Origin: Streptomyces bobili
GTDB taxonomy: Bacteria > Actinomycetota > Actinomycetes > Streptomycetales > Streptomycetaceae
Assembly (NCBI RefSeq): GCF_002154575.1
Contig: NZ_MUBA01000056.1
Coordinates: 1 to 64,000, forward strand
Direction: 5' to 3'
Length of the DNA: 64,000 bases
The notes below the pieces were generated by a model. The model was given only the letters and a program-made list of their open reading frames with translations, was not told the DNA's origin and did no database searches. The position numbers and the translations under genes are program-made. Positions 8,964-51,083 of this stretch are shown one piece after another; position 1 is the stretch's first letter; the number at the start of each line of letters is the position of its first letter.

Positions 8964-9171
8964 CATCACCCCGGCCGCCGCTTTGAACGGCCGCCCAACC
9001 GGCGCCGGCGGGCGCGCAGCGAAACCGCGTCCTGACGTTGGCCACGGTGACCCGGGCGGCGAAGGACAGGGACGGGACTCCGAGGCATCTCTTCGACCTT
9101 GCTGGTGACCGTCTCGGCGTGTCGCCCGCCCTCTTGCCGCAGCCCGGATCGCTGTGCGTGGCTGGTATGGG

Positions 9172-9840
9172 TCAGTTCGCGATTCCGACGACCTGCTCGA
9201 TGGTGTCCGGCTGGTTCACCATGGCGAGCATGTGGTGGGCGACATCGGCGCGGGACACGGAGAACCCGCCCCGGATGTTGCGGTTCCACGCGGTCCTGTA
9301 CCTGCCGGTCAGTGGCTTGTCGGTGAGCTTGGGCGGGCGCGACACCGTCCACTGCAGTCCGCTGTCGCGCAGGGTCTGCTCGGTGACGGCGAGGTCGGCA
9401 TAGTGCCGGCCGAACATCGCCCGGGTAAACGGGACTCCCAGGTGGCGCATGAAGAAGCCGTCGCCGGGGTCGTGCCTGGGTGGCGTCGACTGTCCGGGCA
9501 CCGGCACCGGTCCGACGGGTGCGGCGCTGACGATGATGATCCGGCGGACGTGCTCGGCCCGCATCGCCTCGACGATCGCGCGGGTTCCACGCGAGGTGAT
9601 GCCCGCGTCCGCGCGCGGGTTTCGCGGGCCGAGCGCGGACAGTACGGCGTCGGCGCCGCGTACTGCCGCGGCGAGCGTCGGCATGTCGGGCCGGGTGAGG
9701 TCGACGGCGACCGTGCGGACGCCGCCCGGCAGCTCCCGCGGGCGGCGGGCCACGGCGGTGACATCATGCCCGTCGGCCACCGCCTGCTCGACCAGGTGCC
9801 GTCCGATGCCGCCGGTGGCGGCGACGATCGTGAGTTTCAT
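9172..9840 (-). CDS. NAD(P)-binding protein, atypical SDR (BVR-B/NmrA-like)
   Basis: A 222-residue Rossmann protein. The nucleotide loop AATGGIGRHL is at residues 7-16, followed by an Arg pair (ARRPRELPGG) that suggests NADPH, and by SALGPRNPRAD and VSAAPVGP segments. The classical YxxxK pair is replaced by the FGRHYADLAVTE region, as in biliverdin reductase B-like or NmrA-like atypical SDRs. It overlaps the upstream NmrA-like gene by four bases (ATGA), so both are translated together. They lie next to an ECF41 sigma factor, and oxidoreductase/epimerase genes are standard neighbours of that sigma group. Confidence 0.8.
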   Translation of the reverse strand: MKLTIVAATGGIGRHLVEQAVADGHDVTAVARRPRELPGGVRTVAVDLTRPDMPTLAAAVRGADAVLSALGPRNPRADAGITSRGTRAIVEAMRAEHVRRIIIVSAAPVGPVPVPGQSTPPRHDPGDGFFMRHLGVPFTRAMFGRHYADLAVTEQTLRDSGLQWTVSRPPKLTDKPLTGRYRTAWNRNIRGGFSVSRADVAHHMLAMVNQPDTIEQVVGIAN

Positions 9841-10670
9841 CGGGGTCCTCCTGCGGTGAAGGCGGCACGGTGGTCTCGCGCCCAGGTGCCGTACGTGCGT
9901 GCCGGGCGGCCCAGCAGCCGCCGCACGGTGTCGGTGGTGGGCCCGGCCTCGCGGGCGTAGTCGGCCAGCGAGCCGAGCAGCCGGTCGGGTACCTCGTCGG
10001 GCAGGCCGGCGGCGAGCATGCCGCGGCGTATCTCGTCCGGTGCGGCCTCGACGAACGACAGTGTCCGCTCGAGCGCCGCGCCGAGCGCGGCCACCTTCTC
10101 CGGCTGGCTCAGCGGCCGTTCTCCGGTGAGCAGGTATGTCTGACCGCGGTGCTGCGGGTGGGTCAGGGCGAGGGCGGCCACGGCGGCGATGTCACGCTCG
10201 TCGACGGTCGAGGTCCTGGCGTGCGGGTACGCCCCCCGCACGGTCCCGGTCGCCCGGATCTGCCCGGCCCAGGCCAGCGTGTTGGCGGCGAAATCGGCGC
10301 AGCGCAGGATCGTCCAGTCCAGGCCGCTGTCCTTGGCGATGTCCTCGACCGCCTGGAACTGCTGCCGGAAGCGTGCGTGCCCGGCCGGGTACTGGACGGT
10401 CACGGCGGACAGCACGACCACCCGTGCCGCACCCGTCTCGCGGGCGCGGGCCAACAGGTCGACAGCGGCTGATCCGGCGGCGCGTGGGCTGAGCAGGATG
10501 GCCTCCACCCCGTCGATGGCGGGAACCTTCGCGGGATGGACGAGCTGTGTACCGGCGGGGAATTCGGCGTGCGGATCGCGGGTGACAGCGGCGACTTCCG
10601 CTCCCCCCTCGGCCAGGAGGCGGACGGTTTCCCGGCCGACGACGCCGGTGGCCCCGGTGATCAGGATCAT
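9837..10670 (-). CDS. NmrA-family NAD(P)-binding protein
   Basis: A 277-residue NmrA-like protein. It starts MILITGATGVVGRETVRLLA with the GxxGxxG motif and continues with VTRDPHAEFPAGTQ and a DWTILRCADFAANTL segment typical of the family. The C-terminal part (DEVPDRLLGSLADYAREAG) resembles other Streptomyces NmrA proteins. ATG 10670 follows a GGGGG stretch; codons further upstream look non-coding. It is the first gene of a two-gene operon with the SDR-like gene. It probably binds NADP(H) and acts as a reductase or redox sensor; the actual substrate is unknown. No ECF41 promoter motif was found directly upstream. Confidence 0.8.
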   Translation of the reverse strand: MILITGATGVVGRETVRLLAEGGAEVAAVTRDPHAEFPAGTQLVHPAKVPAIDGVEAILLSPRAAGSAAVDLLARARETGAARVVVLSAVTVQYPAGHARFRQQFQAVEDIAKDSGLDWTILRCADFAANTLAWAGQIRATGTVRGAYPHARTSTVDERDIAAVAALALTHPQHRGQTYLLTGERPLSQPEKVAALGAALERTLSFVEAAPDEIRRGMLAAGLPDEVPDRLLGSLADYAREAGPTTDTVRRLLGRPARTYGTWARDHRAAFTAGGPR

Positions 10671-10820
10671 GACTGAACCCCCAGTGGGTGTGTCGATAGT
10701 CGATCTCGCTCGGTGGATGTTCACGGTTCGTAGCGCGGTTCACATCGTGGGAGAACGTCACGGACGAGCCGTGCGTCAGGACCATCGGAATGCGGCACTG
10801 AAGCCTTAAGTCCTGCCCTG

Positions 10821-10852
10821 TCGGGCTGGTCGGGCTGGTCGGGCTGGTCGGG
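10821..10852. repeat. Short tandem repeat TCGGGCTGG
   Basis: About 3.5 direct copies of the nonamer TCGGGCTGG lie between the ECF41 sigma gene stop and the NmrA promoter region. The repeat is short and GC-rich and has no apparent coding role. Confidence 0.7.
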
Positions 10853-10855
10853 AGA

Positions 10856-11776
10856 TCACTGGGTTCTGCGGGTCCGCTTCACTTCCTGGTCGACGGCCCA
10901 GGCGTCAGCGACCGGGCCGAGGTGGCTGAGCTTGTCGGGGTTGATGACCGCGCGGATCGTCTGGATCTGCCCGTCGAGTGTGTCGAGGGCGAGGATGTGG
11001 AGGATCTTGCCGTCGCGGTCACGGAAGAGCGCGCCCGGCTGGCCGTTGACCTCGTGCGGTTCGAACGTGATGTCGATCCGGGCCATGAGCGGGTAGACGG
11101 CGGCGAGCAGCCTGGCCACGTTCTCGGCGCCGGTGACGGCCCTGGCCAGCTGCGGTGCCTTGCCACCGCCGTCCCCGACGAGCTGGACGTCGGCCGACAG
11201 CAGACTCTGCAGTCCGTCCACGTCACCCTGCGTCAATGCCTCGAAAAACCGCCTCGCCAGCTCCTGCCGATCCTGGCGGTCCGCTTCGAACCGGGGCCGT
11301 CCCTCGTGCATGTGGCGGCGTGCCCGTACGAGCAGCTGCCGGCACGCCGCCTCCGAGCGCCCCACCGCGGCAGCGATCTCGTCGAAGTCGAAGGCGAAGA
11401 CCTCCCGCAGCACGAACACCGACCGCTCCAGCGGACTGAGCCGCTCCAGGAGCAGCAGCGCCGCCATCGACACCGAGTCGGCAAGCTCCGCCGCGCGGGC
11501 CGGGTCCTGGTACGGATCGTCCAGCAGCGGCTCGGGCAACCACGGTCCGACGTACTCCTCCCGCCGCACCCGGGCGGAGCGCAGCACGTCGATCGCGATC
11601 CGGGTGACCGTGGCTGACAAGAACGCCTTGGCCGACACGGGCCGGGTTCTCGAGGCGTCATAACGGAGCCAGGTCTCCTGCACCGCGTCCTCCGCCTCAC
11701 CCACGCTGCCCAGGATCCGGTACGCGATCGAGAACAGCAGCGGCCGCAGCTCCTCGAACTCCTCGACCTTGCCCAC
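10856..11776 (-). CDS. ECF41-type RNA polymerase sigma factor with SnoaL-like C-terminus
   Basis: A 306-residue sigma factor. Sigma-2 (about 5-75) holds SIAYRILGSVGEAEDAVQET. The linker contains the ECF41 hallmark WLPEPL. Sigma-4 (about 115-170) holds LSPLERSVFVLREVF and SEAACRQLLVRARRH. A SnoaL/NTF2-like domain follows and ends with the second ECF41 hallmark, INPDKL. In this group the C-terminal domain replaces an anti-sigma factor as the regulator. Start GTG 11776 is preceded by AGGGGA. The gene lies next to a CMD (AhpD-like) gene and NAD(P)-binding genes, the classical ECF41 neighbourhood. Promoters matching its known consensus occur at 12468-12494 and 12538-12564. Confidence 0.92.
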   Translation of the reverse strand: MGKVEEFEELRPLLFSIAYRILGSVGEAEDAVQETWLRYDASRTRPVSAKAFLSATVTRIAIDVLRSARVRREEYVGPWLPEPLLDDPYQDPARAAELADSVSMAALLLLERLSPLERSVFVLREVFAFDFDEIAAAVGRSEAACRQLLVRARRHMHEGRPRFEADRQDRQELARRFFEALTQGDVDGLQSLLSADVQLVGDGGGKAPQLARAVTGAENVARLLAAVYPLMARIDITFEPHEVNGQPGALFRDRDGKILHILALDTLDGQIQTIRAVINPDKLSHLGPVADAWAVDQEVKRTRRTQ

Positions 11777-11953
11777 GCCGATTTCCCCTTGCGGTCTGAG
11801 TGCCCGGCCGGACTCGCGCCGACGAGACATCTTTCGAAGATCATCCGATGTGTGGGCGGAGCAGACAACGCTCGTACCGCGACCGCCCTGCCCGCCTTGG
11901 CCACGGCGTCCTGGCCCCGGCGGGCCTGACCTGGGCCAGGATGCGGTGGCGGT

Positions 11954-12426
11954 TCAGTGGAACTGGCCGACCTGGTAGTCGCCGGCCGGCTGCTGGGTGA
12001 TGATGTTCAGCCGGTTCACCGTGTTCATGAACGAGACCAGCAGCACGAGGGCCGTGAGCTGCTCCTCGTCGTAGTGCTGGGCGGCACGCGCCCACACCTC
12101 GTCGCTGACCCCGGTGGCCGCGTCCGCGACCCGGGTCCCCTGCTCCGCCAGCTCCAGCGCGGCGCGCTCGGCCGCCGTGAAGACCGTTGCCTCCCGCCAG
12201 GCCGCGATCAGGTTCAGCCGCACCGGGCTCTCGCCGGCTGCGGCGGCTTCCTTGGTGTGCATGTCGATGCACACCGCGCAGCCGTTGATCTGGCTCACGC
12301 GCAACGCCACCAGTTCCTGCGTCGTGGCCGGCAGCGGCGATTCCTTCAGCTCCCGGCCGACCGACATGAAGTACTTGAGCGCCTTGCCGGCGGTCGGGCT
12401 GGCGAAGTAGTTCAGTCGCGCATCCA
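11954..12426 (-). CDS. Carboxymuconolactone decarboxylase/AhpD-like protein
   Basis: A 157-residue member of the CMD/AhpD family. The peroxidase-type motif GCAVCIDMHTKEA (CxxC plus His) lies about residue 50. Such proteins reduce peroxides or act as thiol-disulfide partners in the cytoplasm. ATG 12426 follows a strong GGAGGAG. It is transcribed from a near-perfect ECF41 promoter ending about 42 bases upstream, and CMD proteins are the best documented ECF41 targets. The DoxX-like gene is divergent and has its own copy of the promoter. Confidence 0.9.
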
Positions 12427-12467
12427 TCGTGTGCTCCTCCACGTTCGTCGATGCCTTCACCCACCGA

Positions 12468-12494
12468 GACGAGACAGCCCTCACGTCTGTGACA
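12468..12494 (-). promoter_or_regulatory. ECF41-type promoter of the CMD gene
   Basis: On the minus strand TGTCACA (12494-12488) is followed by exactly 16 bases and CGTC (12471-12468). This is the published ECF41 consensus TGTCACA-N16-CGTC. The leader to the ATG at 12426 is about 35 bases and includes GGAGGAG. Confidence 0.85.
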
Positions 12495-12537
12495 CGAAGC
12501 GGTGTGAGCCACGTCTCTCCGCTGACGGGGCTCGGGA

Positions 12538-12564
12538 TGTCACAGGCCAACTCGCTGCCTCGTC
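12538..12564 (+). promoter_or_regulatory. ECF41-type promoter of the DoxX-like gene
   Basis: TGTCACA at 12538-12544, a 16-base spacer, then CGTC at 12561-12564, identical in key elements and spacing to the promoter on the other strand. The DoxX-like ATG follows about 35 bases downstream. Confidence 0.85.
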
Positions 12565-12598
12565 TCGGGTGCGGAAGTCCTCGATCAGGGAGTTGATG

Positions 12599-12982
12599 AT
12601 GAACCTCGCACTGTGGATCACTGCCGGAGTGCTCGCCGCTGTCTGCCTGGTGGGCAGCTCCAAGATGTTCGTGCCGCGGGAGAAGCTGGCCGCTATGGGC
12701 TCCTCTGCGCAGTGGGTCCTGGAGTTCAGCCCCGGTGCCCTCAAAGCCATCGGTGCCGTCGAGCTGCTGGCTGCGGCCGGCCTGATCCTGCCCGCGGTGC
12801 TCGACGTCGCGCCGGCACTGGTGCCGTTGGCCGCCACCGGACTCGTTGTGCTGTTCGCCTGCGCGCTCACCATGCGTCTGCACCGTGGCGAGAAGGCCAC
12901 GATCTCAGGCGACCTCCTCTACCTCGCCCTCGCCGCCTTCGTCGCATGGGGCCGTTTCGGCCCCGAGTCCTTCACCGGCTGA
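12599..12982 (+). CDS. DoxX-like small membrane protein
   Basis: A 127-residue protein with four predicted membrane helices (about 3-22, 46-66, 72-90 and 100-115), matching the DoxX/DoxX_2-like family. Conserved-looking parts are the first helix followed by GSSKMFVPREKLAAMG, and GAVELLAAAGLILPAV. DoxX proteins are linked to thiol and oxidative stress handling at the membrane. GGGAG lies six bases before ATG 12599; an ATG three bases earlier is an alternative. Control by the ECF41 sigma factor through the promoter at 12538-12564 is inferred from sequence. Confidence 0.8.
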   Translation: MNLALWITAGVLAAVCLVGSSKMFVPREKLAAMGSSAQWVLEFSPGALKAIGAVELLAAAGLILPAVLDVAPALVPLAATGLVVLFACALTMRLHRGEKATISGDLLYLALAAFVAWGRFGPESFTG

Positions 12983-13422
12983 CCACCGGCGTACAAAGCC
13001 GAGCGCCGAAGTGCCAGGCACATTCCAGGCCGTACCAATACACCTGGCAGCCGACGGAGTTGGCTACGACGTCACTCGCCTCAGCAATGACCACCCCGCC
13101 TACTGCAACAGCTTCGCCTACAGAAGGGAGCACAGCCGTGTCCCTGGGTGCTCTGCGGCGTCCAGCGCCTGGCCCAGAGTCGGCTTCGGCGTCCCGGCGG
13201 GTGCTTCCTCGCAGTCAACGGCGTGGATGACGCCCCGGCCGGGTCCTCGGCCGCCGTCCGGGATTCTGCAAGACCCGGCCCGACGGCCGCCACTCGCCGA
13301 GGAGCTGCTGCTCCGTCGTTTCCGCGTCGTGGCGGGGGTTCAGCCGATGCCGTGGAGAGCGAGCGAGTGTTGAGGGGTAAACCAGGTCGACGTAGATCCG
13401 TGCGGTACCCGATCATGCGTTC
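12983..13422. other. Intergenic region, no gene seen
   Basis: About 440 bases between the DoxX-like gene and the DUF6584-like gene. Both strands carry only short open stretches without family resemblance or ribosome binding sites. Confidence 0.4.
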
Positions 13423-13953
13423 ATGCCCCTGAGAGAGACCCTTTCCCGAGTCGACGCAGACCTGGCCGCCGGCCGGGTTCCCCTCGCCCGCCAGCGTCTG
13501 CGCGGTCTCGTCTCGTCCTTCCCGTACGACCTGAGGCTCCGCCGGCGTCTGGCGGAGGTGTACCGGCTCTACGGCGACGCCGCCGAGGCAGGACGCTGGA
13601 TGTACCTCGAAGAGGACCGCGATGCTGACGAGACCGGTGCCTTCGAGACGCGGTACGGGTCTGCCGGGTGGCGGATGAAGGCTCTCGCCTGGCGCGGTCC
13701 CGAGGCGATGGCTGAGACCCCCTTCGCTCAGGGGCAGCTGGTCGCGGTGCGGACCGCCTGCGCCGAGGAACTGGGCCACCCCGTCGACTGGGACGACCCC
13801 GCCTCCTACCAGGACGGCCTTGCGGCGAAGTACGAGGAGGCGCCCTCCGAGCCGTGGACGGTCGGGGGCGTCCTGGCGGGCGTCGGCTGCCTGGCGGGGA
13901 CCCTTGCGTTCCTCGCGATCTGGGTAAATGGAGTCATTGCCCTCTTCAACTGA
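13423..13953 (+). CDS. DUF6584-like protein with C-terminal membrane anchor
   Basis: A 176-residue protein. The N-terminal two thirds are helical, with a tetratricopeptide-like rhythm (RVPLARQRLRGLVSSFPYDL, then LRRRLAEVYRLYGDAAEAGR). A single hydrophobic helix near residues 150-172 (VGGVLAGVGCLAGTLAFLAI) would anchor it in the membrane. It resembles a common Streptomyces hypothetical family (DUF6584) of unknown function. It is monocistronic as far as can be seen, and the start codon lacks a strong binding site. Confidence 0.7.
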   Translation: MPLRETLSRVDADLAAGRVPLARQRLRGLVSSFPYDLRLRRRLAEVYRLYGDAAEAGRWMYLEEDRDADETGAFETRYGSAGWRMKALAWRGPEAMAETPFAQGQLVAVRTACAEELGHPVDWDDPASYQDGLAAKYEEAPSEPWTVGGVLAGVGCLAGTLAFLAIWVNGVIALFN

Positions 13954-50105: not shown

Positions 50106-51083
50106 ATGGGGGATGCCAGGGTGGCCGGTACGGCGGCGGAAGGGCTTGAGGGGTACCGGAGAGAGCTGACCGGGTACTGCTACCGGATGTTGGGGTCGTA
50201 CGCCGAGGCCGAGGACGCCGTGCAGGAGACGCTGGTCCGGGCCTGGCGGAGCATCGACCGCTTCGAGGGCCGGTCGGCGCTGCGGTCGTGGGTGTACCGC
50301 ATCGCGACCAATGTCTGTCTGGACGCGCTGGCCTCGGCCAAGCGGCGGGCGCTGCCGATGGACCTGTCCGGCCCGAGCGAGGGCGCCGCAGTGCCGGCAC
50401 CCCCGCAGGATGCCGCCGCGTGGGTGGGGCCCTGCCCTGGCGGCGATCCGGAGGCAGCCGCGGCGACGGGCGATTCGGTGCGGCTGGCGTTCATCGCCGC
50501 CCTTCAGCACCTGCCGCCCAGACAGCGGGCCACGCTGATCCTGCGGGACGTCCTGGGCTTCTCGGCACGCGAGGTCGCCGACCTTCACGGCTCCACCGTC
50601 GCCTCGGCCAACAGTGCCCTGCAGCGGGCCCGGACGACGCTGGCCGCCCGCCGCCAGGTGACGGGCGGGCCGGGCGACGACAGCCTCCGCCGGGTGCTGG
50701 CCGAGCGGTACGCCGCGGCCTTCTCCCGTTACGACATGGAGGAACTGAACATGCTCCTCCACGTCGATGCCACGCTGTGCCTGCCCCCGTACGCGAAATG
50801 GATGCGCGGCGTACCCGACATCCAGGCGTGGCTCACCGGCCCCGCGATCGGCTGCCTCGGCTCACGCCTGATCCCGACCACGGCGAACGGCTCCCCCGCC
50901 TTCGGCCAGTACCGTCCCCTCCCCGACGGCACCGGCTACGTGCCGTGGGCCCTACAGGTCGTCGAATTCTCCGGCGACCGGATCACCGGCATCACGGCAT
51001 TCCGTGACACCGAACGCCTCTTCCCGCTGTTCAGCCTGCCGGACCGCCTGGCCGCGGACGCCCCCACCGGCGCTCGTGCCTGA
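50106..51083 (+). CDS. ECF sigma factor, SigX5/SigG-type with SnoaL-like C-terminus
   Basis: A 325-residue sigma factor. Sigma-2 (about 15-80) includes LTGYCYRMLGSYAEAEDAVQ and SALRSWVYRIATNVCLDAL. Sigma-4 (about 135-190) includes LPPRQRATLILRDVLGFSAREVA. A SnoaL-like domain fills the C-terminus (MEELNMLLHVDATLCLPPYA, YVPWALQVVEFSGDRITG). This is the SigX5/SigG architecture, where the C-terminal domain tunes activity and no anti-sigma gene is needed. AAGGAG precedes ATG 50106 by six bases. No target promoter is recognised. Confidence 0.9.
   Translation: MGDARVAGTAAEGLEGYRRELTGYCYRMLGSYAEAEDAVQETLVRAWRSIDRFEGRSALRSWVYRIATNVCLDALASAKRRALPMDLSGPSEGAAVPAPPQDAAAWVGPCPGGDPEAAAATGDSVRLAFIAALQHLPPRQRATLILRDVLGFSAREVADLHGSTVASANSALQRARTTLAARRQVTGGPGDDSLRRVLAERYAAAFSRYDMEELNMLLHVDATLCLPPYAKWMRGVPDIQAWLTGPAIGCLGSRLIPTTANGSPAFGQYRPLPDGTGYVPWALQVVEFSGDRITGITAFRDTERLFPLFSLPDRLAADAPTGARA

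Follow-up and report, generated by a model that had tools for sequence, protein, structure and literature searches.

According to the parts of the ECF41 study that deal with target promoters (Wecke et al. 2012, PMC3426412), COE genes are the sole detected targets of ECF41 sigma factors, each of which generally controls one target gene or operon. Where the sigma factor and COE genes are divergent, both are often preceded by the promoter motif. A YVGPWLPEP linker motif and NPDKL in the C-terminal extension are given as hallmarks of the group (PMC7730460), and WLPEP is also given for ECF41 in PMC3426412. Here I describe a locus in a stretch of 64,000 nucleotides from Streptomyces bobili, hereafter the window. 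With a probability of roughly three in four, it is an autoregulated ECF41 locus with two divergent targets and a probable second input of the Crp/FNR type, as judged from gene order, promoter motifs and comparison with related genomes.

The sigma factor gene and the adjacent divergent promoters

The features of the locus are as follows.

9172..9840, minus strand: second NAD_binding_10 SDR-type protein (domain match)
9837..10724, minus strand: NAD_binding_10/NmrA SDR-type protein, probable downstream gene of the CMD-sigma unit (domain match)
10856..11830, minus strand: ECF41 sigma factor with a C-terminal SnoaL_2 domain (family models, linker motifs)
11954..12427, minus strand: CMD (PF02627) protein with an AhpD core domain and CAVC (CxxC) (family models, motif search)
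12468..12494, minus strand: ECF41-type promoter TGTCACA-N16-CGTC before the CMD gene (exact match; same arrangement in homologous loci)
12504..12517, no strand: Crp-type box GTGAGCCACGTCTC (one base off GTG-N6-GNCAC; 9 bp to the CMD -35, 20 bp to the DoxX -35)
12538..12564, plus strand: ECF41-type promoter TGTCACA-N16-CGTC before the DoxX_2 gene (exact match; motif also in the closest DoxX matches)
12596..12982, plus strand: DoxX_2 (PF13564) small protein, candidate divergent target (domain match)

The CMD, sigma factor and two SDR genes run one way and the doxX gene runs the opposite way. It was found that the sigma factor matches Sigma70_r2, r4_2 and r4 as well as SnoaL_2 (PF12680, 30.9 bits against a cut-off of 27), with region 3 unmatched, as is the criterion for an ECF41 sigma factor. 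It scores over the cut-offs of TIGR02957 (371 against 323.25 bits) and of the SigJ subfamily model PRK09636.1 (328.6 against 271 bits), which I take to be ECF41 markers. It carries YVGPWLPEP at residue 93 and NPDKL at residue 297, and the motif TGTCACA-N16-CGTC stands before its COE gene, here the CMD gene. The adjacent sigma factor thus passes the ECF41 tests used, and the WLPEPL and NPDKL hallmarks that the sequence-only reading had assigned to it are borne out. No anti-sigma family was found among the six neighbouring proteins scanned. The window has a second sigma-like gene (50151-50780, plus strand), which scores 100 bits to TIGR02957, below the cut-off.

The CMD protein has the AhpD core (TIGR00778, 75.4 against 27.8 bits) with CAVC at residue 50, and it misses the cut-off of the full-length AhpD model TIGR00777 (23.8 against 191.95 bits). 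The DoxX_2 protein passes the PF13564 cut-off (57.6 against 26.3 bits), and its membrane location is predicted from the family.

The window was scanned on both strands for exact TGTCACA-N(15-17)-CGTC, with 100 shuffles as the chance level. Two matches were found, one on each strand and both with 16-base spacers, where the shuffles gave a mean of 0.13 and none of the 100 reached two. The CMD start codon (12427, minus strand) lies 40 nt after CGTC and the DoxX ATG (12596, plus strand) lies 31 nt after it, so the leaders are similar, not equal, in length. The motif pair, its equal spacers, its placement before the CMD gene and the divergent DoxX-like gene, and the likeness of the leaders all agree with the sequence-only reading. 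In the whole-genome scan which that reading put forward, the own genome (8.06 Mb in 946 contigs) gave 10 exact matches, and the backward pattern gave 2. Of the other eight, two lie at a plausible distance before a likely gene start, as judged by eye from the downstream ORFs. The two genes, both named by eye, are a nadA-like gene at 57 nt (L191 / L004) and a flotillin-like gene at 113 nt. Since a similar sequence is listed for another genome (G248), the exact motif before the nadA-like gene may be an unrelated conserved element.

The sigma gene probably starts at GTG 11776, which has AAGGGG upstream (by eye), 177 bp after the CMD stop codon. In 9000-13500 a consensus scan found neither a terminator nor a sigma-70 promoter, and the interval from CMD to sigma contains no copy of the ECF41 motif, even with one mismatch allowed. 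Read-through from CMD into sigma, and with it autoregulation of the sigma factor via the CMD promoter, is therefore likely, while the 177-bp interval makes a separate sigma promoter possible. The two SDR ORFs overlap at their ends by 4 bases, and the order CMD, sigma, SDR, SDR recurs in two other loci (L043 and L089).

DoxX_2 genes and back-to-back promoters in other genomes

Is the DoxX_2 gene a recurrent target? By protein search, 75 of the 295 genomes of the genus contain DoxX_2 homologues. Among the 91 matches listed, two (G142, G261) were left out and one (G205) was present in duplicate, and the counts below refer to 89 distinct loci. In 27 of the 89, the motif with at most one mismatch lies within 170 bp upstream of the DoxX_2 gene, and in a further 6 the DoxX_2 gene is the second gene behind a motif-bearing CMD gene; the reversed motif was found in 0 of 90 upstream regions (one locus counted twice). 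The ten closest matches, at 76-100% identity and with the window's own among them, all stand divergent to CMD and sigma genes and all carry the motif with at most one mismatch. By arrangement, the motif precedes doxX in 10 of the 11 loci where it is divergent to CMD, in 8 of the 11 where it is the first gene before sigma, and in 3 of the 9 where it is divergent to sigma; of the 12 loci with doxX behind CMD, 6 have the motif before CMD. On the other hand, 38 of the 89 homologues have neither the motif nor a sigma neighbour in the stretch examined. Thus, DoxX_2 is not tied to ECF41 in general.

The motif before each gene, and the retention of the CMD-doxX pair in related genomes, argue that CMD is probably an ECF41 target and the divergent DoxX-like gene probably a second one, as had been proposed. 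A recurrent DoxX_2 target widens the view of one target gene or operon per ECF41 sigma factor. A link between DoxX_2 and ECF41 was not found in the literature searched; DoxX or Crp may be mentioned in the ECF re-classification (Casas-Pastor et al. 2021) or in Wu et al. (2019). The words 'DoxX' and 'Crp' are both absent from the main text of PMC3426412; a DoxX gene may be among the genes of its Figure 2, since unnamed hypothetical genes with the motif appear there. In the RIViT-seq paper (PMC9205884), the ECF41 passage found is a reference only.

The whole back-to-back pattern was found in at least 118 stretches among named genomes, and the 80 titles listed include Actinobacteria, Sphingomonas, Bradyrhizobium, Methylobacterium, and Paenibacillus. 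Within the genus, it occurs in 11 of 295 genomes (0 for the pattern read backwards), nine with DoxX opposite CMD-sigma, the own genome included, and two with sigma opposite CMD. From 129 loci, 120 distinct regions were obtained: 38 with sigma opposite CMD, 19 with DoxX opposite CMD and then sigma, 5 with sigma opposite DoxX, 36 with sigma opposite a gene unmatched by the window's proteins, and 22 others; as homologous loci are related by descent, such counts do not amount to independent trials. In 18 of the 19 distinct DoxX-CMD regions, CTCGTC stands at the end of both promoters (by eye). Unclassified partners, defined as ORFs of at least 70 aa opposite a sigma, CMD or DoxX gene, numbered 31. 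The 28 of these that were scanned (L054, L058, and L074 were left out) include five flavodoxin-fold reductases, five NAD_binding_10 proteins, and pairs of SDR, MFS, and Clp protease genes. Pairing ECF41 promoters back to back is thus a general design, which agrees with the published remark on divergent sigma and COE genes.

Several loci are worth recording in their own right. A Clp protease gene is divergent to an ECF41-type sigma gene across back-to-back motifs in L148 and in one further member of alignment A1. In a Devosia locus (L064), a bestrophin-type gene lies opposite SDR-, CMD- and sigma-like ORFs across such motifs. A record of Rhizohabitans arisaemae (L086) has DoxX opposite CMD-sigma with a promoter region very like the Streptomyces ones, possibly due to a transfer or a labelling problem. 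In five loci of one genus (L170, L171, L173-L175), only 6 bp lie between the motifs, which leaves hardly any room for two polymerases to bind simultaneously; the gap is 23 bp in a sixth genome of that genus (L172).

Gaps of 6, 20, 23 or 24 bp were found in 9 of 276 genomes of the class, gaps of 25-55 bp in 6, and gaps of 56-86 bp in none. The raw gap counts are two-peaked, at 31-36 and 42-47 bp with none at 39-41. Helical phasing of the gap was considered and rejected, as the signal is weak once similar loci are merged into 48 clusters (44 of them with gaps in 25-55 bp), with p about 0.07 under both a normal and a uniform null model. The gap differs by 11 bp between two similar Paenibacillus loci (L116 and L094), which is no more than suggestive.

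The Crp-type box between the promoters

In PMC10033298, GTG-N6-GNCAC is quoted as the Crp consensus of S. coelicolor. The window's box GTGAGCCACGTCTC has one mismatch to it (CTC for CAC) and misses the strict consensus, so that I do not claim it as a Crp site. It does stand where strict boxes stand in related loci. The strict form was found in 23 of 28 similar actinobacterial divergent loci, chosen as one similarity cluster (shuffles gave a mean of 0.12 and a maximum of 2), and in all 28 the best-scoring TGTGA-N6-TCACA position is no more than 1 bp off the centre of the gap. In the window's own cluster of 23 loci (25 minus L049 and L130; L054 and L066 are not classed as DoxX opposite CMD), the strict form occurs in one. 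The palindrome scores there are alike, at 7.87 of 10 against 5.17 for shuffled sequence, and the palindrome is off-centre, with 16 bp between its middle and the nearer -35 and 27-29 bp between its middle and the farther one. A third ECF41 promoter across the box (TGTGACA-N17-CGTC from 12488, plus strand, one mismatch) was rejected, as many boxes in the genus lack that CGTC (by eye).

A scan of the genus for GTG-N8-CAC located 0-30 bp upstream of ECF41 motifs gave matches in 127 of 295 genomes (at least 148 matches, against 49 for a control pattern counted by hand). The matches listed fill 150 rows, 148 of them distinct. Among these 148, the distance from box to -35 is 9-11 bp in 68 and 19-21 bp in 26; the preferred distances thus hold 94, and the other 25 distances hold 54. 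I examined 30 loci of the genus. In all 12 at 9-10 bp the gene led to is CMD or sigma, in one case with another gene in between. The nine at 19-21 bp lead to two CMD genes, an SDR-like gene (37 bits), nadA, and five genes for FAD-dependent oxidoreductases, one checked in Pfam and four alike by eye. Two further CMD genes have the box off the preferred distances, at 14 and 24 bp (L196 and L213). Five loci, from five genomes (L189, L190, L194, L202, and L208), share a common CACYGACAA stretch as well as a box 19-21 bp upstream of an ECF41-type motif, before FAD-dependent oxidoreductase-like genes.

Genomes outside the genus gave 31 matches, against 5 for the control by hand count; 12 of the 31, found in nine genomes, are at 9-10 bp and none is at 19-21 bp. 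Two divergent loci (G377 and G427) contribute both of their sides and so account for four of the 12; their regions (L183 and L182) are also among those with gaps of 25-55 bp in the class. The window's box is at both genus-preferred distances, with the CMD -35 at 9 bp and the DoxX -35 at 20 bp. Among the 27 DoxX promoters with the ECF41 motif, GTG-N8-CAC lies within 50 bp upstream in four, at 4, 10, 16, and 21 bp. Assuming that transcription starts 7-9 bases after CGTC, the box middle would be near -50 for CMD and near -61 for DoxX. The two positions differ by one turn of the helix, and activators classically bind at -61.5.

These placements make a second input of the Crp/FNR type at the locus probable, with the box as its candidate site. 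Does this apply more widely? I tentatively propose, at a little short of even odds, that many ECF41 promoters in Streptomyces and several other actinobacteria are two-input promoters, in which a Crp/FNR-type protein at a preferred helical position helps the ECF holoenzyme and a single box is shared by the two promoters of a divergent locus. If true, this would tie the ECF41 signal, of which the ECF41 paper speaks as some unknown signal (PMC3426412), to cAMP or carbon status. Placed as it is at preferred distances from the -35, the Crp-type box lends itself to a concrete and cheap experiment on the further control of these promoters.

Another protein than Crp may bind the box, such as another Crp/FNR member or sigma region 4, or the box may be a repressor site. 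This is a possible case but one I consider doubtful: the half-sites resemble the -35 element (TCACA is part of TGTCACA), and HTH_Crp_2 gives eight matches above its cut-off in the genome, of which two, at 68 and 54 bits, are clear, but the strict form equals the Crp consensus quoted for S. coelicolor (PMC10033298). A plain ECF41 locus, in which the sigma factor acts alone and the palindrome is a by-product of shared ancestry or a part of the promoter for some other reason, is unlikely. In its favour, adding the sigma factor alone was enough to switch on the B. licheniformis ECF41 promoter in B. subtilis (PMC3426412), and no such box was seen by eye in proteobacterial and Paenibacillus divergent loci. 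Against it, in 16 loci with a 34-bp gap oriented by the box, the fixed columns of the box have 1.5-2.0 bits and every other column has at most 0.9, and the preferred distances recur before CMD, sigma, and oxidoreductase genes, with 9-10 bp seen also outside the genus.

A proposed model and the closest known systems

In the proposed model, the sigma factor would drive two divergent promoters at its own locus. One would transcribe CMD and then, by read-through, the sigma gene and probably the two SDR genes, giving positive autoregulation; the opposite one would produce the DoxX_2 protein. The fused SnoaL_2 domain would gate sigma activity, in line with reports on other ECF41 proteins. The box between the promoters is probably bound by a Crp/FNR-type protein, which would modulate both promoters, with the box lying upstream of the CMD -35 by 9 bp and of the DoxX -35 by 20 bp. 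What is observed is the set of sequence elements, how they are conserved and how they are spaced. I infer from them the transcription by the adjacent sigma factor, the operon structure, the occupancy of the box and the sign of its effect. The box, the two SDR genes and the likely autoregulation were absent from the sequence-only reading, whose ECF41 identity and CMD and divergent DoxX targets are supported and whose two-part thiol/peroxide response has little support.

That response is improbable and weakly supported at best, the evidence for a peroxide link being mixed and weak. The CMD protein has an AhpD core with CxxC, and the ECF41 paper suggests an oxidative stress role for CxxC-bearing CMDs and refers to an M. 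tuberculosis sigJ mutant that was slightly sensitive to peroxide (PMC3426412); some ECF41 members are counted as protective against oxidative stress in a review (PMC8103513). Against this, the CMD protein misses the full-length AhpD cut-off, DoxX_2 lacks a conserved Cys (no alignment column exceeds 30% Cys in the 60 best matches), and the R. sphaeroides and B. licheniformis strains showed no significant difference with four oxidants (PMC3426412). It is equally hard to credit that one or both promoters are driven by a different ECF41 paralogue in the cell. The -35 heptamer is common to the ECF41 group (PMC3426412), and, the adjacent sigma factor aside, six proteins encoded in the genome exceed 250 bits against the ECF41-type model, but the six paralogue loci have no exact motif and one site with one mismatch, and the locus is kept together in relatives, both of which still leave room for cross-talk.

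The locus belongs soundly to a known system and adds two features to it, a DoxX target that recurs and what is probably a site for a second regulator. It resembles divergent Crp-dependent promoters in having one central site for two promoters; those, unlike the window's pair, use the housekeeping sigma factor. ECF promoters are not generally known to be activator-dependent. The likeness to M. tuberculosis SigJ is at the protein level, as the window's sigma factor passes PRK09636.1 and has the SnoaL_2 extension. The closest systems are the ECF41 loci of Wecke et al. (2012, PMC3426412), with which the window shares, as far as they are described there, a sigma factor with a fused C-terminal domain, a COE gene upstream in the same direction, TGTCACA-N16-CGTC before that gene, and a lack of anti-sigma genes, here among the six neighbours scanned. 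Unlike the loci described there, the window has a divergent DoxX_2 target and a Crp-type box between the two promoters.
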